This document shows positions 1,115 to 7,753 of a DNA stretch of 36,788 bases, in pieces. The notes under the pieces were generated by a model that saw only the letters and a list, made by a program, of their open reading frames with translations, made no database searches and was not told the DNA's origin. Made by a program: the position numbers and the translations under genes. The stretch is taken from IMG/VR virus record IMGVR_UViG_3300025543_000086, positions 1-36,788 of that record; one strand, written 5' to 3'. The stretch comes from a virus. How positions within the stretch are numbered: the stretch's first letter is position 1; every line of letters begins with the position of its first letter.

Positions 1115-2041
1115 ATGCCACCCAAACAAGAAGAACTTAAAAGTACACACACTATACGCAAAGCTTGTGACTTCTACATGCGTACACCTAAGTTCTGTGC
1201 TTTGGGTGGTAAGTCACAGTATGACTACAATCGTAACTTAGCGTTCGCTTGTAATACATCAGTACAAGGGGGTAAGTATTTAGGTAACATCAAACTAAAA
1301 GACATACAGTTTTCTCATGTAACTGTAGCTTATGATTACTGGCGAGTTAAGCATGGTGTGAGGGCAGCTAACTATATAGCTACCTGTCTAAGCATTGTGT
1401 TTAACACAGCCAGAAGACACAACGCACTACTATCAAACCCTGTGTCGTTGCTTGATCGTGCCAAGCCTAAGCCTCGCAAAGTCAAGTGGACTACACCTCA
1501 AGTCAAACAGTTCCTTGATACAGCGTACAGTAATTGGGAGTGGCGTAGCATTGGCTTGATTGTACACATGGCGTTCCATTGGGCGCAGCGTATAGGTGAC
1601 ATGCGTTTACTTGAGTGGAAAGCATTAGACCTAGACAAAGGTGTGCTAGACCTAGAGCAAAGCAAGCGTGGTGCAGATGTTCACCTACCTATACAGGGTG
1701 GGTTGTTACCTATGCTACAACAGCAGAAGGAAGACTTTGGGTTCCTACCTTATGTAGCACCTAGAGTTAGGGCTAGGGCTGGCGTATATACGCCCTACGA
1801 TGATGTTGAGATTTGTGGTTTAGTTAATAGTGTTAAAGAGGCGGCTGGCTTACCTGATGAGTTGACAGCTATGGACTTAAGGCGTACAGCTATTACTCAG
1901 ATGGTTGAGAAGGGTGTTGATGTTGTGGGTATCATGCAAGTAAGTGGACACAGCACACCACAAAGCGTTGCGCCGTACTTAGTTAATACATTGGCTGGTG
2001 CTACTGAGGCATTGTCTAATAGAGAAGAGGACATGATATGA
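1115..2041 (+). CDS. int: tyrosine recombinase / integrase
   Basis: The 308-residue product has the tyrosine-recombinase layout: an N-terminal core-binding region (about 10-115) and a C-terminal catalytic domain (about 125-295). Visible catalytic residues are R159 (WAQRIGDM), likely K184 (SKRG), R256 in DLRRT, H279 in SGHS and nucleophile Y288 in PYLV. The usual first His of the HxxR motif is Met (M253-D-L-R256), an uncommon change. It would catalyse site-specific recombination between phage and host attachment sites, or act in resolution. No attP core or tRNA-like sequence was recognised beside it. Its stop overlaps the primase start, so it is co-transcribed with replication genes. Confidence 0.9.
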   Translation: MPPKQEELKSTHTIRKACDFYMRTPKFCALGGKSQYDYNRNLAFACNTSVQGGKYLGNIKLKDIQFSHVTVAYDYWRVKHGVRAANYIATCLSIVFNTARRHNALLSNPVSLLDRAKPKPRKVKWTTPQVKQFLDTAYSNWEWRSIGLIVHMAFHWAQRIGDMRLLEWKALDLDKGVLDLEQSKRGADVHLPIQGGLLPMLQQQKEDFGFLPYVAPRVRARAGVYTPYDDVEICGLVNSVKEAAGLPDELTAMDLRRTAITQMVEKGVDVVGIMQVSGHSTPQSVAPYLVNTLAGATEALSNREEDMI

Positions 2042-2802
2042 TGCACAAGTACATAGAAGACTTAGACTTAGGGGAGGGTGACACTGTAAGAGGTGATTGC
2101 CCTGATTGTGGTGGTAAGAATACCTTTACTGCTAACAAGTCAGGCGGTGCTGTCCTGTATAACTGCTACAAGCTAGGCTGTAAGATCAGTGGTATCCACA
2201 CTGTAGGTATGACTGCTACTGACATACAAGCTAGGATGCAGGAAGTAGGACAAGATAAACCTAAACCAAAGGTAGAGGTTATGGAAATACCTGAGTACGT
2301 TGTAATTGCAGCTAGTAGTATACTTGATTCTTTTAGAGAAAAGTGGGACTTATGGGATCAAGGCTTGATGTATGATATTAAGGACAAACGCGCAGTGTTT
2401 CCTATCTTTATAGATGGGGTGATGATTGATGCTGTAGGTAGGTCTTTAGCTGGCGCAGAACCTAAGTGGTTGCGCTACACTGGCAAGGCTGATTACTTCA
2501 TTGCAGGTACAGGTGATACTGCAGTTGTAGTTGAGGATGTTATCAGTGCTATCACTGTAGCCAAGCTAGGTTTCACTGGTATGGCTATTCTTGGTACGTC
2601 TTTAAGTGTTGCACATATGGAACAGTTGGGTAACTATTCTCAGGTTATCGTAGCGTTAGACCCTGATGCTGCACACAAGACCTTGCGTTTTAGACAAGAG
2701 ATAGAGGCGTGGACAGGTGCAACCACTATTGCATTAAGACTTGACGATGACATAAAGTATCGTGTAGAGTCCGACATTGAGCAGTTGAAGGAGTTCCTAT
2801 GA
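2038..2802 (+). CDS. TOPRIM primase with N-terminal zinc finger
   Basis: The 254-residue product resembles the primase half of T7 gp4. A zinc-binding module (C21, C24 in CPDCGG; C43 and C48 in CYKLGC) is followed by a TOPRIM domain with the conserved Glu (E166 in VVVEDVISA) and the DxD pair (D208, D210 in ALDPDAA). It would make RNA primers for lagging-strand synthesis. No helicase domain is attached: the helicase is encoded separately at 4430-5653, so the T7-type primase-helicase is split. The start is ATGATG, with an AAGAGG site 7 nt upstream. It overlaps the end of the recombinase gene by 4 bp. Confidence 0.85.
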   Translation: MMHKYIEDLDLGEGDTVRGDCPDCGGKNTFTANKSGGAVLYNCYKLGCKISGIHTVGMTATDIQARMQEVGQDKPKPKVEVMEIPEYVVIAASSILDSFREKWDLWDQGLMYDIKDKRAVFPIFIDGVMIDAVGRSLAGAEPKWLRYTGKADYFIAGTGDTAVVVEDVISAITVAKLGFTGMAILGTSLSVAHMEQLGNYSQVIVALDPDAAHKTLRFRQEIEAWTGATTIALRLDDDIKYRVESDIEQLKEFL

Positions 2803-2803
2803 C

Positions 2804-2941
2804 ATGGATAAAAAGAGAAGACCTAATCCTATGGCTAAGGATTTGATGAACCCTAAGTATAGACCCAAGGTTATACCTGACAAAAAACATCCTGCCATTC
2901 GTAAGAAGAAGCACAAAGGAGACAAGGAAGATGAAAGCTAG
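2804..2941 (+). CDS. small Lys/Arg-rich protein
   Basis: The 45-residue frame starts 1 bp after the primase stop. The sequence (MDKKRRPNPMAKDL, then NPKYRPKVIPDKK, then a Lys-rich tail KKKHKGDKE) resembles small basic proteins I recall as recurrent in marine phages, but this was not searched. The pattern RPNPMAKDL...KYRPKVI followed by a basic tail suggests nucleic-acid binding. The frame overlaps the next small gene by 11 bp. Confidence 0.6.
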   Translation: MDKKRRPNPMAKDLMNPKYRPKVIPDKKHPAIRKKKHKGDKEDES

Positions 2942-3032
2942 AGAGGAACTACTTAGAGAGATTGGCGAGTTGAAGAAACACATTGAAAAACTAGAAGCAC
3001 AAATAAGGTTATGGAAAGGTACAGCACCGTGA
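2931..3032 (+). CDS. 33-residue coiled-coil peptide
   Basis: AAAGGAGACAAGGA lies just before the ATG, a strong ribosome site. The peptide MKAREELLREIGELKKHIEK and its continuation show a heptad pattern of Leu/Ile over almost its full length, so it should form one amphipathic helix or a coiled coil. It overlaps both neighbours, as is typical of compact phage operons. Function is unknown. Confidence 0.5.
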   Translation: MKAREELLREIGELKKHIEKLEAQIRLWKGTAP

Positions 3033-3463
3033 ACAACTATGTATACACAGCAATCGGACTTGTAGTCTTTTATGTCGGACTAAAAATGTTTAGTGGGGGC
3101 ATGAAAAGTATGGGTAACATAGACCACTTGACTTGGTTTTTGGGCAACCCAATCTATATGTTCTTTGGGTCAATCGTTATGACACTGGCATGGCAGAGTA
3201 GTAGCCTATCCACTACAGCTATCATTGCATTGGTTGCATCAGGTGTACTACCGTTACCGGCTGCTGTGGCTGCTGTGCTTGGGGCTAACATAGGTACGAC
3301 AGGTACGATCTGGTTGGCAGGGCTGCTAGTGTCTGACGGTATGCCTAAAGGTGACACGTTACGCATAGCCATGATACACACTGGTGTTAATCTTTTGATG
3401 GCGATAAGTCTGTTGCCATTTGTAAATCACATAGCTAAATTTGTAGGTAAGGTAGGTCAATGA
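3011..3463 (+). CDS. half-length Na+/phosphate cotransporter-like membrane protein
   Basis: The 150-residue product matches one repeat of the Na+/Pi cotransporter (PNaS, NptA-type) family. The diagnostic QSSS motif occurs in LAWQSSSLSTTAIIALV, followed by a re-entrant-type stretch and GANIGTT. About four hydrophobic segments are seen (around 10-29, 47-62, 65-95 and 124-147). Full transporters have two such repeats, each with QSSS, and often a PhoU tail; only one repeat is present here. It may work as a homodimer, modify the host transporter, or bind phosphate alone. The start at 3011 has only a weak ribosome site and overlaps the previous gene. It sits with a second membrane gene in the nucleotide/replication operon. 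Confidence 0.8.
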   Translation: MERYSTVNNYVYTAIGLVVFYVGLKMFSGGMKSMGNIDHLTWFLGNPIYMFFGSIVMTLAWQSSSLSTTAIIALVASGVLPLPAAVAAVLGANIGTTGTIWLAGLLVSDGMPKGDTLRIAMIHTGVNLLMAISLLPFVNHIAKFVGKVGQ

Positions 3464-3777
3464 GGCAACACATATACGACACGTGGACACTGATCATGGA
3501 TTCAGATAAAAGTCCACTAAAGAATATACCTGACAACAATGCCCGTCACTTAATCCTGCAGATACTAGCATGGATGTGGTGCATTGTGTTTAGTATTTTC
3601 TTGGGTAGCTATCTTGTGTTTGGTCTAACAGCAATAGCTCATGTGTTACTTTTAGCAGCAATAGCTATCACCGTTGGTACGTTTGATACTGCCAACAGAA
3701 ACCCAAAGACGTTATCTGATTTTGCTATGCGTCTTGATGGGTACAATGGTAGGCGTAACAATGGGGAGCATGACTAA
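3460..3777 (+). CDS. two-span membrane protein
   Basis: The 105-residue product overlaps the transporter-like gene by 4 bp (ATGA), so the two are translationally coupled. The N-terminal 28 residues are soluble. Two adjacent hydrophobic spans follow (about residues 30-56 and 57-74), then a polar tail (NRNPKTLSDFAMRL). The layout is a small inner-membrane protein. Coupling to the transporter-like gene suggests a shared role, but no family is recognised. A holin is possible by topology, though its place in the early arm argues against it. Confidence 0.65.
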   Translation: MRQHIYDTWTLIMDSDKSPLKNIPDNNARHLILQILAWMWCIVFSIFLGSYLVFGLTAIAHVLLLAAIAITVGTFDTANRNPKTLSDFAMRLDGYNGRRNNGEHD

Positions 3778-4433
3778 TGATTAAAGTAACGCTAATAGAT
3801 AGCATGGGTAGTGACTTGTCTGTAGTCAATGCAGCACGTGTATCCTTTGGTAAAGTTAGTGAAATGGATACGAGTAATCAATGGGGTCCACCTAAATTGA
3901 AAGACAAGGATGCTAAACTAATCAAGTACCTAGCCAAGCATAGGCATATGTCACCATTTGGTCATGCCTTTGCATCTTTACATATCAAGGCTCCTATCTT
4001 TGTAGCTAGACAACTGGTCAAGCATAAGTTCCTACGATGGAATGAGATTAGCCGTAGGTATGTAGATGATGAGCCTGAGTTCTATGAACCTGCTGAGTGG
4101 AGGGATAAAAGTGAGGATAAGAAGCAGGGTAGTGGAGGTAAAAGTCAGTCTCAATATTTCCCTAACATCTATGTCAAAGAGGTGGCAGATAAGGCACTAG
4201 GTGATTATAAAAAGATGTTGGTTCAAGGCATCTGTCCAGAACAAGCACGAATGGTGTTGCCGCAAAGCACCATGACTGAATGGTATTGGTCAGGTAGTCT
4301 TGACGCCTTCATGGATATGTGCAATCTAAGATGTAAGCTGGACACTCAGTACGAGACTAGGTTAGTTGCAGAATATATACTGAGTGAAATGATTAACTTA
4401 TTTCCAGTATCAGTGGAGGCATTAAGAAGATGA
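3777..4433 (+). CDS. thyX: flavin-dependent thymidylate synthase ThyX
   Basis: The 218-residue product is the normal length for ThyX, which makes dTMP from dUMP using methylene-tetrahydrofolate, FAD and NADPH. The signature RHR-x7-S appears at 82-92 as KHKFLRWNEIS followed by RRY, with both Arg of RHR changed to Lys. N89, E90 and S92 are kept, as is the C-terminal substrate region QARMVLPQSTMTEW. An N-terminal SPFGHAFASLHIKAP segment fits the fold. A polar Gly/Ser/Lys-rich insert at about 110-126 is probably a loop. It provides thymidine for phage DNA synthesis alongside the RNR and MazG genes. The frame starts at the last base of the preceding stop. Confidence 0.95.
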   Translation: MIKVTLIDSMGSDLSVVNAARVSFGKVSEMDTSNQWGPPKLKDKDAKLIKYLAKHRHMSPFGHAFASLHIKAPIFVARQLVKHKFLRWNEISRRYVDDEPEFYEPAEWRDKSEDKKQGSGGKSQSQYFPNIYVKEVADKALGDYKKMLVQGICPEQARMVLPQSTMTEWYWSGSLDAFMDMCNLRCKLDTQYETRLVAEYILSEMINLFPVSVEALRR

Positions 4434-5653
4434 TGGAGCTATCTCTAATTAGAACGCTACACGATAAGGAGTTCTATGAAGATCACAAGGGTATTAAATG
4501 CCCTGACAAGTTGTTCACTAAAGATGTCCGAAAGATCAAGCGTGTTTTAGATAACGCTATGGAAAAGTATGACTGCACTATATCTACCTCTGAGTTAGAA
4601 GCTTTGTTTTTCTCTGAGTACAGCACTATGACTACAGCCAACAAGGTTTTGTACGAGGGTCTGTTCTCTAAGTTACGCAAAGAGGTTCCTATGTCTAGGG
4701 ACGTAGCCTCTGATGTACTGTCTAGGATGTTTAGGCAGCACGTAGGGGAGCAAGTAGCTAACTTAGGGTTTGACTACGTTAACGGTAATCTTACATCCCT
4801 AGAGCCCCTACGCCAAGTGCTAGAGGCGCATGAGGATAACTTTATGCCCAACATGAATGTTGAGTGGGCTGACATTGATATAGACACTATCCTTGAGGCT
4901 GGTACTAAGCAGTCACAGTGGAAGTGGAACATACCCAGCCTAGCAGGGCGCATAGAAGGCATTAGCAGCGGTCACTTTATTATTATAGGTGCTAGGCCCA
5001 ACACAGGTAAGACAAGCTTCCATGCGTCTACTATTGCCTCACCTAAAGGTTTTGCAGAGCAAGGTGCTAAGTGTATGGTACTGTGTAACGAGGAAGAGTA
5101 TGTACGTGTAGCTGAACGCTACCTGTGTGCTGCTGCTAGTATGGATACAGATGAGATTAAGTCTAACTATGCGTTAGCTGCTGCAAGGTACAAGAAAGTG
5201 CGTGATCAGATTAGTATGTTTGACAGTACAGGTAAAGACTTAGGGTGGGTAGAGAACATCATTAAGCACAGCAAGCCTGACATAGTTGTACTTGATATGG
5301 GAGATAAGTTTGCCTTAAAGACTAGCGATAAGTCAGATGTATATCTTAAGGCTGCAGCTATCCACGCTAGGAACATAGCTAAGAAGTATGACTGTGCTAT
5401 TATATGGATGAGCCAGTTGTCGGCTGATGCACAAGATAAGGTCTACTTAGATCAATCCATGCTTGAAGGGAGTAAGACAGGCAAGGCAGCAGAGGCAGAC
5501 CTGATGTTGCTGATTGCTAAGAACCAAGTTACTGAGGGCGATGATGAAGACAATCAACGGCATATTAACGTAGCTAAAAATAAGCTAAAGGGTGGATGGC
5601 ATGGGGTTGTCCATTGTGAATTAGACGGGGGCAGGTCACAGTACCTAGCCTGA
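4430..5653 (+). CDS. DnaB-like replicative helicase
   Basis: The 407-residue product has an N-terminal helical region (about 1-140) and a RecA-type ATPase core. Walker A is GARPNTGKTS (187-196), acidic residues E221-E223 follow strand 2 (VLCNEEE), Walker B is IVVLD (285-289), and the DnaB-type H3 stretch is WMSQLS (326-331). It should unwind DNA at the fork as a hexamer and work with the separate TOPRIM primase at 2038-2802. The start overlaps the thyX stop (ATGATG at 4430), with GGAGG about 12 nt upstream; the second ATG at 4433 is an equally possible start. Confidence 0.85.
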   Translation: MMELSLIRTLHDKEFYEDHKGIKCPDKLFTKDVRKIKRVLDNAMEKYDCTISTSELEALFFSEYSTMTTANKVLYEGLFSKLRKEVPMSRDVASDVLSRMFRQHVGEQVANLGFDYVNGNLTSLEPLRQVLEAHEDNFMPNMNVEWADIDIDTILEAGTKQSQWKWNIPSLAGRIEGISSGHFIIIGARPNTGKTSFHASTIASPKGFAEQGAKCMVLCNEEEYVRVAERYLCAAASMDTDEIKSNYALAAARYKKVRDQISMFDSTGKDLGWVENIIKHSKPDIVVLDMGDKFALKTSDKSDVYLKAAAIHARNIAKKYDCAIIWMSQLSADAQDKVYLDQSMLEGSKTGKAAEADLMLLIAKNQVTEGDDEDNQRHINVAKNKLKGGWHGVVHCELDGGRSQYLA

Positions 5654-5668
5654 TGTGAAAGGAATACA

Positions 5669-7753
5669 ATGAGACTTGTATTAGATGTAGAAAACACAAC
5701 AAAGAAACGTAATGGTAAGCTAATGCTTGACCCTTGGGAAGAGGGTAACTTCCTAGTTAACGTAGGGGTTCGTGACGTTGACGATGGCACTGAGGCTTTG
5801 ACGTTTGACTTACAGCACAAAGAGTACGTTGATCAGACAGGCGTTGAGTCTAAGCGTATTCAAAAGATACTAGACCATACTACCCTGCTGATTATGCACA
5901 ACGCACAGCACGACTTGGCTTGGCTTTGGGAGTGTGGCTTTAAGTATGATGGGCCTATATGGGATACCATGTTAGCTGAGAGTATTTTACTCAGAGGAAA
6001 CAACCTAGAAATCTCACCCAAAGGTGTAGCTAAAAAGATATCTTTGTCCCTTGAGAATACTGCTATCCGTAGGAACTTAGACTTCCAAAAAGATGACACC
6101 CTCAAGCGTTACTTTAAAGACGGCTACAACACTGATGAGATACCATTATCAGAATTGACTTTTTATCTTGAAGCTGATTGTAACACCACTGCTTCTCTGT
6201 TTCACTCTCAGGTTGCAGACTTCATGCTTCCTGAGTCTCAAAGTCTTATCAAAGTGAGAGACATTACGTTTGATGTATGTAAGCTTCTTACACGCATGAA
6301 AGCTGACGGTATGAAGGTAGACCGTAAGGCTTTAAATGCAGTACGTAAAGAGTTTGAAGACGAGCGTGGTACTATACAATCCCGCCTACAGATGCAAGTT
6401 CGTGAGGTTATGGGTGACACACCAGTTAACTTAAATAGTCCAGAGCAAATGTCTCAAGTTATCTTTAGCCGTAAGCCTCACTCCAAGGACGATTGGCCCA
6501 ACTTGTTTGACAACTGTAAGAACCTAGCAGAGTTAAAGAAGATTGTTACAGCCAACAGTGATCTTCTTTATCGCACTGAGGCGTTTACTTGCCCTACTTG
6601 TGGGGGTAGTGGAGAAACATATAAGTTAAAGAAAGACGGTAGTAGGTATGCAAGACCTAACAAATGTAAAGACTGTGATGGCAGAGGCTATCAACTTAAG
6701 AAGCAAGAAAGAATGGCTGGCTTTGGTTTCTTCCCGCCTAGCGCATCTTGGGTTAGTGCTAGTGGTTTTTCTACAGGTAAGGATATACTAGATGTACTTA
6801 GGGCTACAGCTATGGATAACAATATGTCTGATGCTGTTACATTCCTTGAGGACTTGAAGCGGCTTAACGCTGTGTCTAGCTACCTATCTAGCTTTGTTGA
6901 GGGTATAGACACCTTTACCAAGCAGAATGATGTACTGCATGTATCACTAACGCAGCACATTACATCTACTGGTAGGTTTAGTGGGCGTGAGCCTAACATG
7001 CAGAATATGCCTAGAGGTGGTACATTCCCTGTTAAGCGTGTCTTTGTTTCGCGTTGGTCTGGTGGTAAGATAATGGAAGCAGACTTTGCACAGCTAGAGT
7101 TTAGGGCTGCTGCATTTTTGTCACAGGATGAGACAGCTATGGAAGAGATTAACACAGGGTTTGACGTACACTCTTACACTGCACAAATTATCTCTGATGC
7201 GGGTCAGCCTACTGCTAGACAAGCTGCCAAGGAACACACCTTCGCCCCTCTCTTTGGCGCGACAGGGTACGGTAGAACTAAAGCGGAAGCTGCATACTAC
7301 ACGCACTTCATTGACAAGTATAAAGGTATAGCTAAGTGGCACAAGAAGCTAGGTGATGAGGCTATACGTTTTCAAAAGATAACCAATGTATCAGGTAGAC
7401 AATATTCATTTCCCGGCACTACTAGAAGGGAAAACAATACACCTACTAACTTTACTAGGATCAAGAACTACCCTGTCCAAGGGTTTGCTACTGGTGATGT
7501 TGTACCTGTTGTATTGCTTGAGATTGACAAGAGACTTAAGAGTATGCGCTCTTGCATAGTTAATAGTGTCCATGACTCAGCGGTCATTGACATACACCCT
7601 GATGAACAAAAGGAGGTAATCAATGTCATTAACGATGTTAACGACAGTCTTAATAGTATCATTGATAATTACTACGGCATAAAGATGAACGTACCACTAC
7701 TTTTAGAAGCCAAGATTGGACCGAATTGGCTTGACACTAAAGATGTGATATGA
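5669..7753 (+). CDS. family A DNA polymerase with DnaJ-type zinc-finger insertion
   Basis: The 694-residue product is the phage replicase. The 3'-5' exonuclease domain carries D6/E8 (LDVEN), N78/D82 (MHNAQHD) and Y166/D170 (YLEAD). The polymerase domain has motif A D472 (ADFAQLEFR), motif B R517/K521 with F525 and YG at 534-535, and motif C VHDS. Between the domains, residues 308-340 hold two CxxCxGxG motifs (CPTCGGSG at 308 and CKDCDGRG at 333), a partial DnaJ cysteine-rich domain. This architecture is known from phage HMO-2011 and relatives. F525 aligns with Phe762 of E. coli Pol I, a state reported as common in lytic phages. AAAGGA precedes the ATG. Confidence 0.95.
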   Translation: MRLVLDVENTTKKRNGKLMLDPWEEGNFLVNVGVRDVDDGTEALTFDLQHKEYVDQTGVESKRIQKILDHTTLLIMHNAQHDLAWLWECGFKYDGPIWDTMLAESILLRGNNLEISPKGVAKKISLSLENTAIRRNLDFQKDDTLKRYFKDGYNTDEIPLSELTFYLEADCNTTASLFHSQVADFMLPESQSLIKVRDITFDVCKLLTRMKADGMKVDRKALNAVRKEFEDERGTIQSRLQMQVREVMGDTPVNLNSPEQMSQVIFSRKPHSKDDWPNLFDNCKNLAELKKIVTANSDLLYRTEAFTCPTCGGSGETYKLKKDGSRYARPNKCKDCDGRGYQLKKQERMAGFGFFPPSASWVSASGFSTGKDILDVLRATAMDNNMSDAVTFLEDLKRLNAVSSYLSSFVEGIDTFTKQNDVLHVSLTQHITSTGRFSGREPNMQNMPRGGTFPVKRVFVSRWSGGKIMEADFAQLEFRAAAFLSQDETAMEEINTGFDVHSYTAQIISDAGQPTARQAAKEHTFAPLFGATGYGRTKAEAAYYTHFIDKYKGIAKWHKKLGDEAIRFQKITNVSGRQYSFPGTTRRENNTPTNFTRIKNYPVQGFATGDVVPVVLLEIDKRLKSMRSCIVNSVHDSAVIDIHPDEQKEVINVINDVNDSLNSIIDNYYGIKMNVPLLLEAKIGPNWLDTKDVI

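Follow-up and report, generated by a model that had tools for sequence, protein, structure and literature searches.

The gene at positions 3029–3463 (+) of the window, the 36,788-nucleotide stretch of IMG/VR virus record IMGVR_UViG_3300025543_000086 analysed here, encodes, by its sequence and with the support of a structural model, one complete inverted-repeat unit of the Na+/Pi cotransporter fold, composed of three transmembrane helices and one re-entrant QSSS hairpin. This single-repeat protein is a real, widespread and strongly conserved variant of a known carrier family. Its occurrence in HMO-2011-type phages is not a new discovery, since Qin et al. 2022 reported a PF02690 gene in eight metagenomic viral genomes of HMO-2011-type subgroup I and suggested for it a role in the Na+-dependent uptake of Pi where water is phosphate-limited (PMC9038755). 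The gene of Qin et al. 2022, called a sodium-dependent phosphate transport protein, belongs to the same Pfam family and the same phage group and is very likely the gene seen in the window. In the consulted parts of that report the gene is treated as an ordinary Na/Pi cotransporter, with its half size, single repeat and wider phage distribution unremarked (PMC9038755). A literature search of incomplete coverage found no remark on the single-repeat form.

The open reading frame spans 3011–3463 (+) and gives 150 residues when counted from the ATG at 3011. The GTG at 3029 is the likelier start, leading to a protein of 144 residues, because it overlaps the stop of an upstream 33-residue ORF (MKAREELLREIGELKKHIEKLEAQIRLWKGTAP; 2931–3032, +) as GTGA, is immediately preceded by the Shine-Dalgarno-like GGAAAGG and occupies the position of the Met that begins many relatives, including ones with a different upstream sequence. 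At its 3′ end the gene shares four bases (ATGA) with the ATG of the next ORF at 3460. The Pfam search returned one PF02690 (Na_Pi_cotrans) match at 55.7 bits (E 7.2e-15; curated cut-off 29.1 bits), covering model positions 2–109 of 137, and no second PF02690 place was found in a search of the whole virus record. The sequence-only reading, which had described a single QSSS (residues 56–59), GANIGTT (residues 85–91) and no second repeat, is borne out. The same reading had pointed to a missing PhoU domain. PhoU is indeed absent, the protein terminating after TM3, but this is no peculiarity, as two of the three NptA types, those of B. subtilis and V. cholerae, are also devoid of it and Pi import by S. 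aureus NptA survives removal of the PhoU domain (PMC13170248). The 144-residue protein does not reach the NCBIfam cut-offs of TIGR00704 (49.4 against 210.1 bits), NF037997 (39 against 50 bits) or TIGR01013 (31.1 against 306.2 bits), and a PHROG search with the window protein gave no convincing match.

An AlphaFold2 model built from 44 family members (mean pLDDT 85.4, pTM 0.76) predicts the layout TM1–hairpin–TM2–TM3, with an extra short helix at residues 32–38. Two invariant lysines, K19 and K26, lie towards the C-terminal end of predicted TM1 (residues 3–28; 3035–3112, +). The re-entrant hairpin (3149–3238, +) is modelled as a pair of helices, HPa (residues 41–55) and HPb (residues 58–70), separated by a short break, and the conserved QSSS motif (3194–3205, +) is positioned at its tip. 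TM2 (residues 76–101; 3254–3331, +) displays the GANIGTT motif at 3281–3301, and TM3 (residues 109–142; 3353–3454, +) displays H117-TGV-N121; both helices are placed by the model, by conservation and by comparison with NaPi-IIa. Foldseek searches of PDB and BFVD gave no significant structural match to the model. VIA-align returned Z 5.0 to Drosophila INDY, of the DASS/INDY-like elevator fold, over residues 1–144, a value within the background range. The SLC34A2a entries found by sequence were missing from the structural matches, which says nothing about the fold.

The family profile aligns with SLC34A2a at E 6e-20, residues 9–134 corresponding to the full length of repeat 1 (82–214), and the match to repeat 2 is partial (residues 48–125 with 397–473). 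In bacterial two-repeat proteins repeat 2 is matched full-length by the phage family (residues 12–143). These profile matches show the phage protein to be a single repeat unit whose ends are the natural ones. At about 25% identity over 130 residues, a tree joining the phage half with repeats 1 and 2 would lack resolution. Repeat-unit sequence, QSSS, GxNIGT, H-x-x-x-N and ligand spacing are all shared with SLC34/NaPi-II (structures 9z60 to 9z66, SLC34A2a). In contrast, each SLC34 chain contains two inverted repeats and extra C-terminal helices (PMC6325988), whereas the phage chain contains one repeat. Similarly, the PF02690 membrane repeats are common to E. coli YjbB and to the bacterial NptA-type carriers (with PhoU, of B. 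subtilis type and of V. cholerae type), although NptA-type carriers have two repeats, some with PhoU, and the phage half has one repeat and no PhoU.

The Na3 ligands of NaPi-II are Q417, S418, S419, T451 and T454, and the Na1 ligands are T200, Q206, D209 and N227, with R210 and D224 nearby (PMC6325988). The phage QSSS reproduces the spacing of Q417/S418/S419 of NaPi-IIa, and the distance from Q56 to G85-A86-N87 is identical to that from Q417 to G446-S447-N448 of NaPi-II. The ligand positions identified by mutagenesis of NaPi-IIa are retained. In NaPi-IIa numbering T90 corresponds to T451, T93 to T454, N121 to N227, D103 to D209 and T118 to D224, a mapping that derives from a pairwise alignment of profiles, gapped once near D103, and for which the NaPi-II numbers were located by counting along SLC34A2a at QSSS, GSNIGTTTT, QVGDR and HDFFN. 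By this alignment one phage repeat carries both Na1-type and Na3-type ligands, which in NaPi-II are divided between two repeats. The ligand residues of the Na+/Pi site form the most conserved part of the family: in 122 sequences S57–S59 and N121 are invariant, Q56 is kept in 99%, and D103 and T118 are each kept in 98%. The presence of T118 in place of D224, which is required for SLC34 electrogenicity, suggests electroneutral coupling if the phage half transports at all, since D224G turns NaPi-IIa electroneutral (PMC6325988).

The assignment to phages in the earlier reading holds well beyond the window. With the window protein as query, an IMG/VR scan yielded at least 584 confirmed viral stretches encoding relatives, and a scan with a distant family member returned 596 stretches, many loci being common to both. 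A clean single-repeat family ORF is present at 230 loci and measures 142–160 residues where the 3′ end is complete, with starts chosen by rule. No second match was found within the flanks at any locus of the first scan set, and exactly one PF02690 place per record was observed in 25 of 25 virus records (the window and 24 others, 23–177 kb), which is strong and not absolute evidence for the absence of a second copy as the 24 further records may be fragments. Thus, a second half encoded by a neighbouring gene, which the sequence-only reading had named as counter-evidence, was found neither nearby nor elsewhere in these records. Median dN/dS was 0.076 over 1,101 pairs (dS 0.1–1.2), and this low ratio reveals strong purifying selection on the transporter half. 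The carriers are uncultured viral contigs, probably marine, and their gene neighbours vary, comprising HMO-2011-type replication genes, RNA polymerase with primase/helicase (L054), portal and head genes (L061), a T4-family DNA polymerase (L232) and terminase (L069). In a 134-kb viral contig (L174, positions 1407–4489) the transporter half is flanked by a dehydrogenase and by a gene resembling tryptophan halogenase.

A tblastn search of the window protein against 50,697 phage records gave no match at E 1e-3 and no credible relative; the lineages carrying the transporter half are hardly represented in this collection. Weak transporter matches occur in unannotated Staphylococcus, Listeria and faecal records of the phage collection, the Staphylococcus and Listeria 'phage' records being OR849875, OR844989, OR848285 and OR846721, and these are possibly bacterial DNA. 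The plasmid search found no relative of the transporter half. A scan for two family motifs in 84,980 cellular species genomes, which reaches close relatives only and would miss distant half-size forms, returned one locus (L085, PAAV01000031, a Chloroflexi MAG). The L085 contig measures 28 kb, its neighbouring ORFs look phage-like by eye, and it may be a mis-binned phage contig. In the profile survey of cellular half-size forms, which covered Chloroflexota, PF02690 is otherwise located in open frames of at least 355 residues.

The window derives from a phage of HMO-2011 type and covers a fragment of its genome. The phage group is identified by the DNA polymerase A (5669–7753, +), which is 66% identical to that of roseophage CRP-2 and 55% identical to that of HMO-2011, and contains the DnaJ-type zinc insert annotated in HMO-2011 as DnaJ_CXXCXGXG. 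Integrase, primase, ThyX, helicase and further nucleotide-metabolism genes are also encoded. No such transporter gene is annotated in the corresponding region of the cultured relatives CRP-2, CRP-207 and HMO-2011. Transporter halves 96–98% identical to that of the window are found in phages with a polymerase only 45–55% identical, and over 27 loci the identities of the two proteins to the window correlate weakly (Spearman 0.36, p 0.07). At locus L023 the flanking genes are nearly identical to those of the window, with a block at 3025–3475 falling to 74–86% in most 50-base steps. The divergent block coincides almost exactly with the transporter gene, as in a gene-sized exchange of alleles. Together, the identity mismatch and the L023 block indicate that the gene moves or recombines as a unit.

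To function, the half would probably need a partner, in the simplest case an inverted second copy. The leading model for the working of the protein is a stand-alone minimal carrier. Two copies of the phage half inserted in opposite orientations would pair as a homodimer, and this antiparallel homodimer would rebuild the two-hairpin Na+/phosphate site that is formed by fused repeats in NptA and SLC34. Three helices of the unit cross the membrane, and NaPi-II has its two repeats in mutually inverted orientation (PMC6325988), so that rebuilding the two-repeat site from one gene would need antiparallel copies. In the infected cell the homodimer would let Na+ drive additional phosphate through the inner membrane of the host, most likely into the cell, where it would feed phage DNA synthesis. 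Transport direction is not fixed within the PF02690 family, as YjbB overproduction is linked to Pi export (PMC11850910). The antiparallel homodimer is kept as the leading model on two grounds, the complete set of ligands and the lack of any other encoded half, exactly one PF02690 place being found in each of the 25 virus records; our confidence in it is somewhat short of even. Half-size dual-topology transporters of the EmrE/SMR type offer a parallel, as there too a single-repeat gene has fused two-repeat relatives, and antiparallel pairing would likewise be needed for the phage half to copy the two-repeat fold. The EmrE/SMR fold differs, however, from that of the phage half with its re-entrant hairpin.

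It is possible, though we would stop short of calling it probable, that the transporter halves constitute a phage-specific lineage of half-size Na+/phosphate carriers that work as antiparallel homodimers and have spread among many groups of marine phages by the exchange of gene-sized segments. Apart from this lineage, the analysis encountered the NptA/SLC34 fold only in the form of two repeats fused in one chain. On the usual view, inverted-repeat transporters go back to an ancestor of half size and dual topology whose gene was duplicated. With a single-repeat relative of NptA and SLC34 occurring in nature, this origin could be tested in a phosphate carrier of elevator type with re-entrant hairpins, and the study of Na+/Pi coupling would gain its smallest system. 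Marine virology would learn from it that phages own a long-conserved phosphate-uptake gene, probably not recently borrowed from a host.

The membrane topology was assessed from the numbers of Lys and Arg that the model places on either side, a measure that depends on segment limits chosen by the authors. The window protein carries 4 positive charges on one side and 2 on the other (+2), and in the 122 sequences the difference between side A and side B ranges from +1 to +4 and is never zero or negative. In the bacterial two-repeat proteins examined, the same count ranges from +3 to +5 in repeat 1 and from −1 to −4 in repeat 2, and these opposite signs indicate that the measure works in this fold. 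The bias of the phage family points to one favoured orientation, N-out/C-in, whereas EmrE-type dual-topology proteins display no positive-inside bias (PMC4560821). It counts as evidence of moderate weight against balanced dual topology, moderate because K19, invariant and situated within the first helix, may be buried or functional; omission of this residue reduces the bias by one only. In SLC34A2a, a very small sample, repeat 1 scores −2 in comparison with the +3 to +5 of bacterial repeat 1, and SLC34A2a and the bacterial proteins might be oppositely oriented in the membrane.

The one-sided charge, which resembles cellular repeat 1 and is not balanced, is accommodated by an arrangement in which the half adopts one orientation and pairs with a host two-repeat Na/Pi carrier, or swaps for one of its halves, and so raises, redirects or blocks host phosphate flux. 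All interface motifs are retained. Yet the family is nearly unchanged across phages whose replication modules differ greatly and whose hosts probably differ too, and this spread over unrelated phages makes a host-specific partner less likely. Nor is a fixed host partner, none of which was encountered in this analysis, assured, as NptA-type carriers appear to occur in only about 36–58% of 926 surveyed bacterial genomes, the counts being for separate types (PMC13170248). Pairing with the host carrier is therefore considered unlikely.

The same charge bias would also suit a homo-oligomer in a single orientation that uses the fold without the two-repeat transport cycle and has another activity, such as an ion or phosphate leak, an effect on membrane potential or a block of superinfection. 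In its favour, the phage half has no inverted repeat, the feature by which that cycle is defined in known members. This reading is about as unlikely as pairing with the host carrier, as conservation is highest at the ligands of the Na+/Pi site, which a different role would give no reason to retain.

A heteromeric carrier formed with another phage membrane protein, for example the product of the gene at 3460, is improbable. That gene (3460–3777, +) encodes a small membrane protein of 105 residues, and its ATGA overlap with the transporter gene recurs in several relatives. The product matches no Pfam, PHROG or NCBIfam family and has no similarity to PF02690. It belongs to an independently spread phage family of at least 596 related IMG/VR stretches, often beside ThyX (in the window at 3777–4433, +; PF02511, 2.5e-47), a frequent neighbour of both small membrane genes by synteny. 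The transporter half is near only 19 of 80 loci of the 3460 family, and a 3460-type gene is missing from most transporter loci. Thus, the coupling described in the sequence-only reading stands as an ATGA overlap, and the 3460 product is rejected as an obligate subunit in the general case. We regard the transporter half and the 3460 gene as two occupants of a variable region next to thyX.

Decay of a host-derived full-length carrier, to which the presence of one of two repeats could point and which the earlier reading had tied to a want of equal-length relatives, is rejected as extremely unlikely given the 230 loci of equal length, the dN/dS of 0.076, the exact repeat boundaries and the fact that none of the phages examined has a relative with two repeats.
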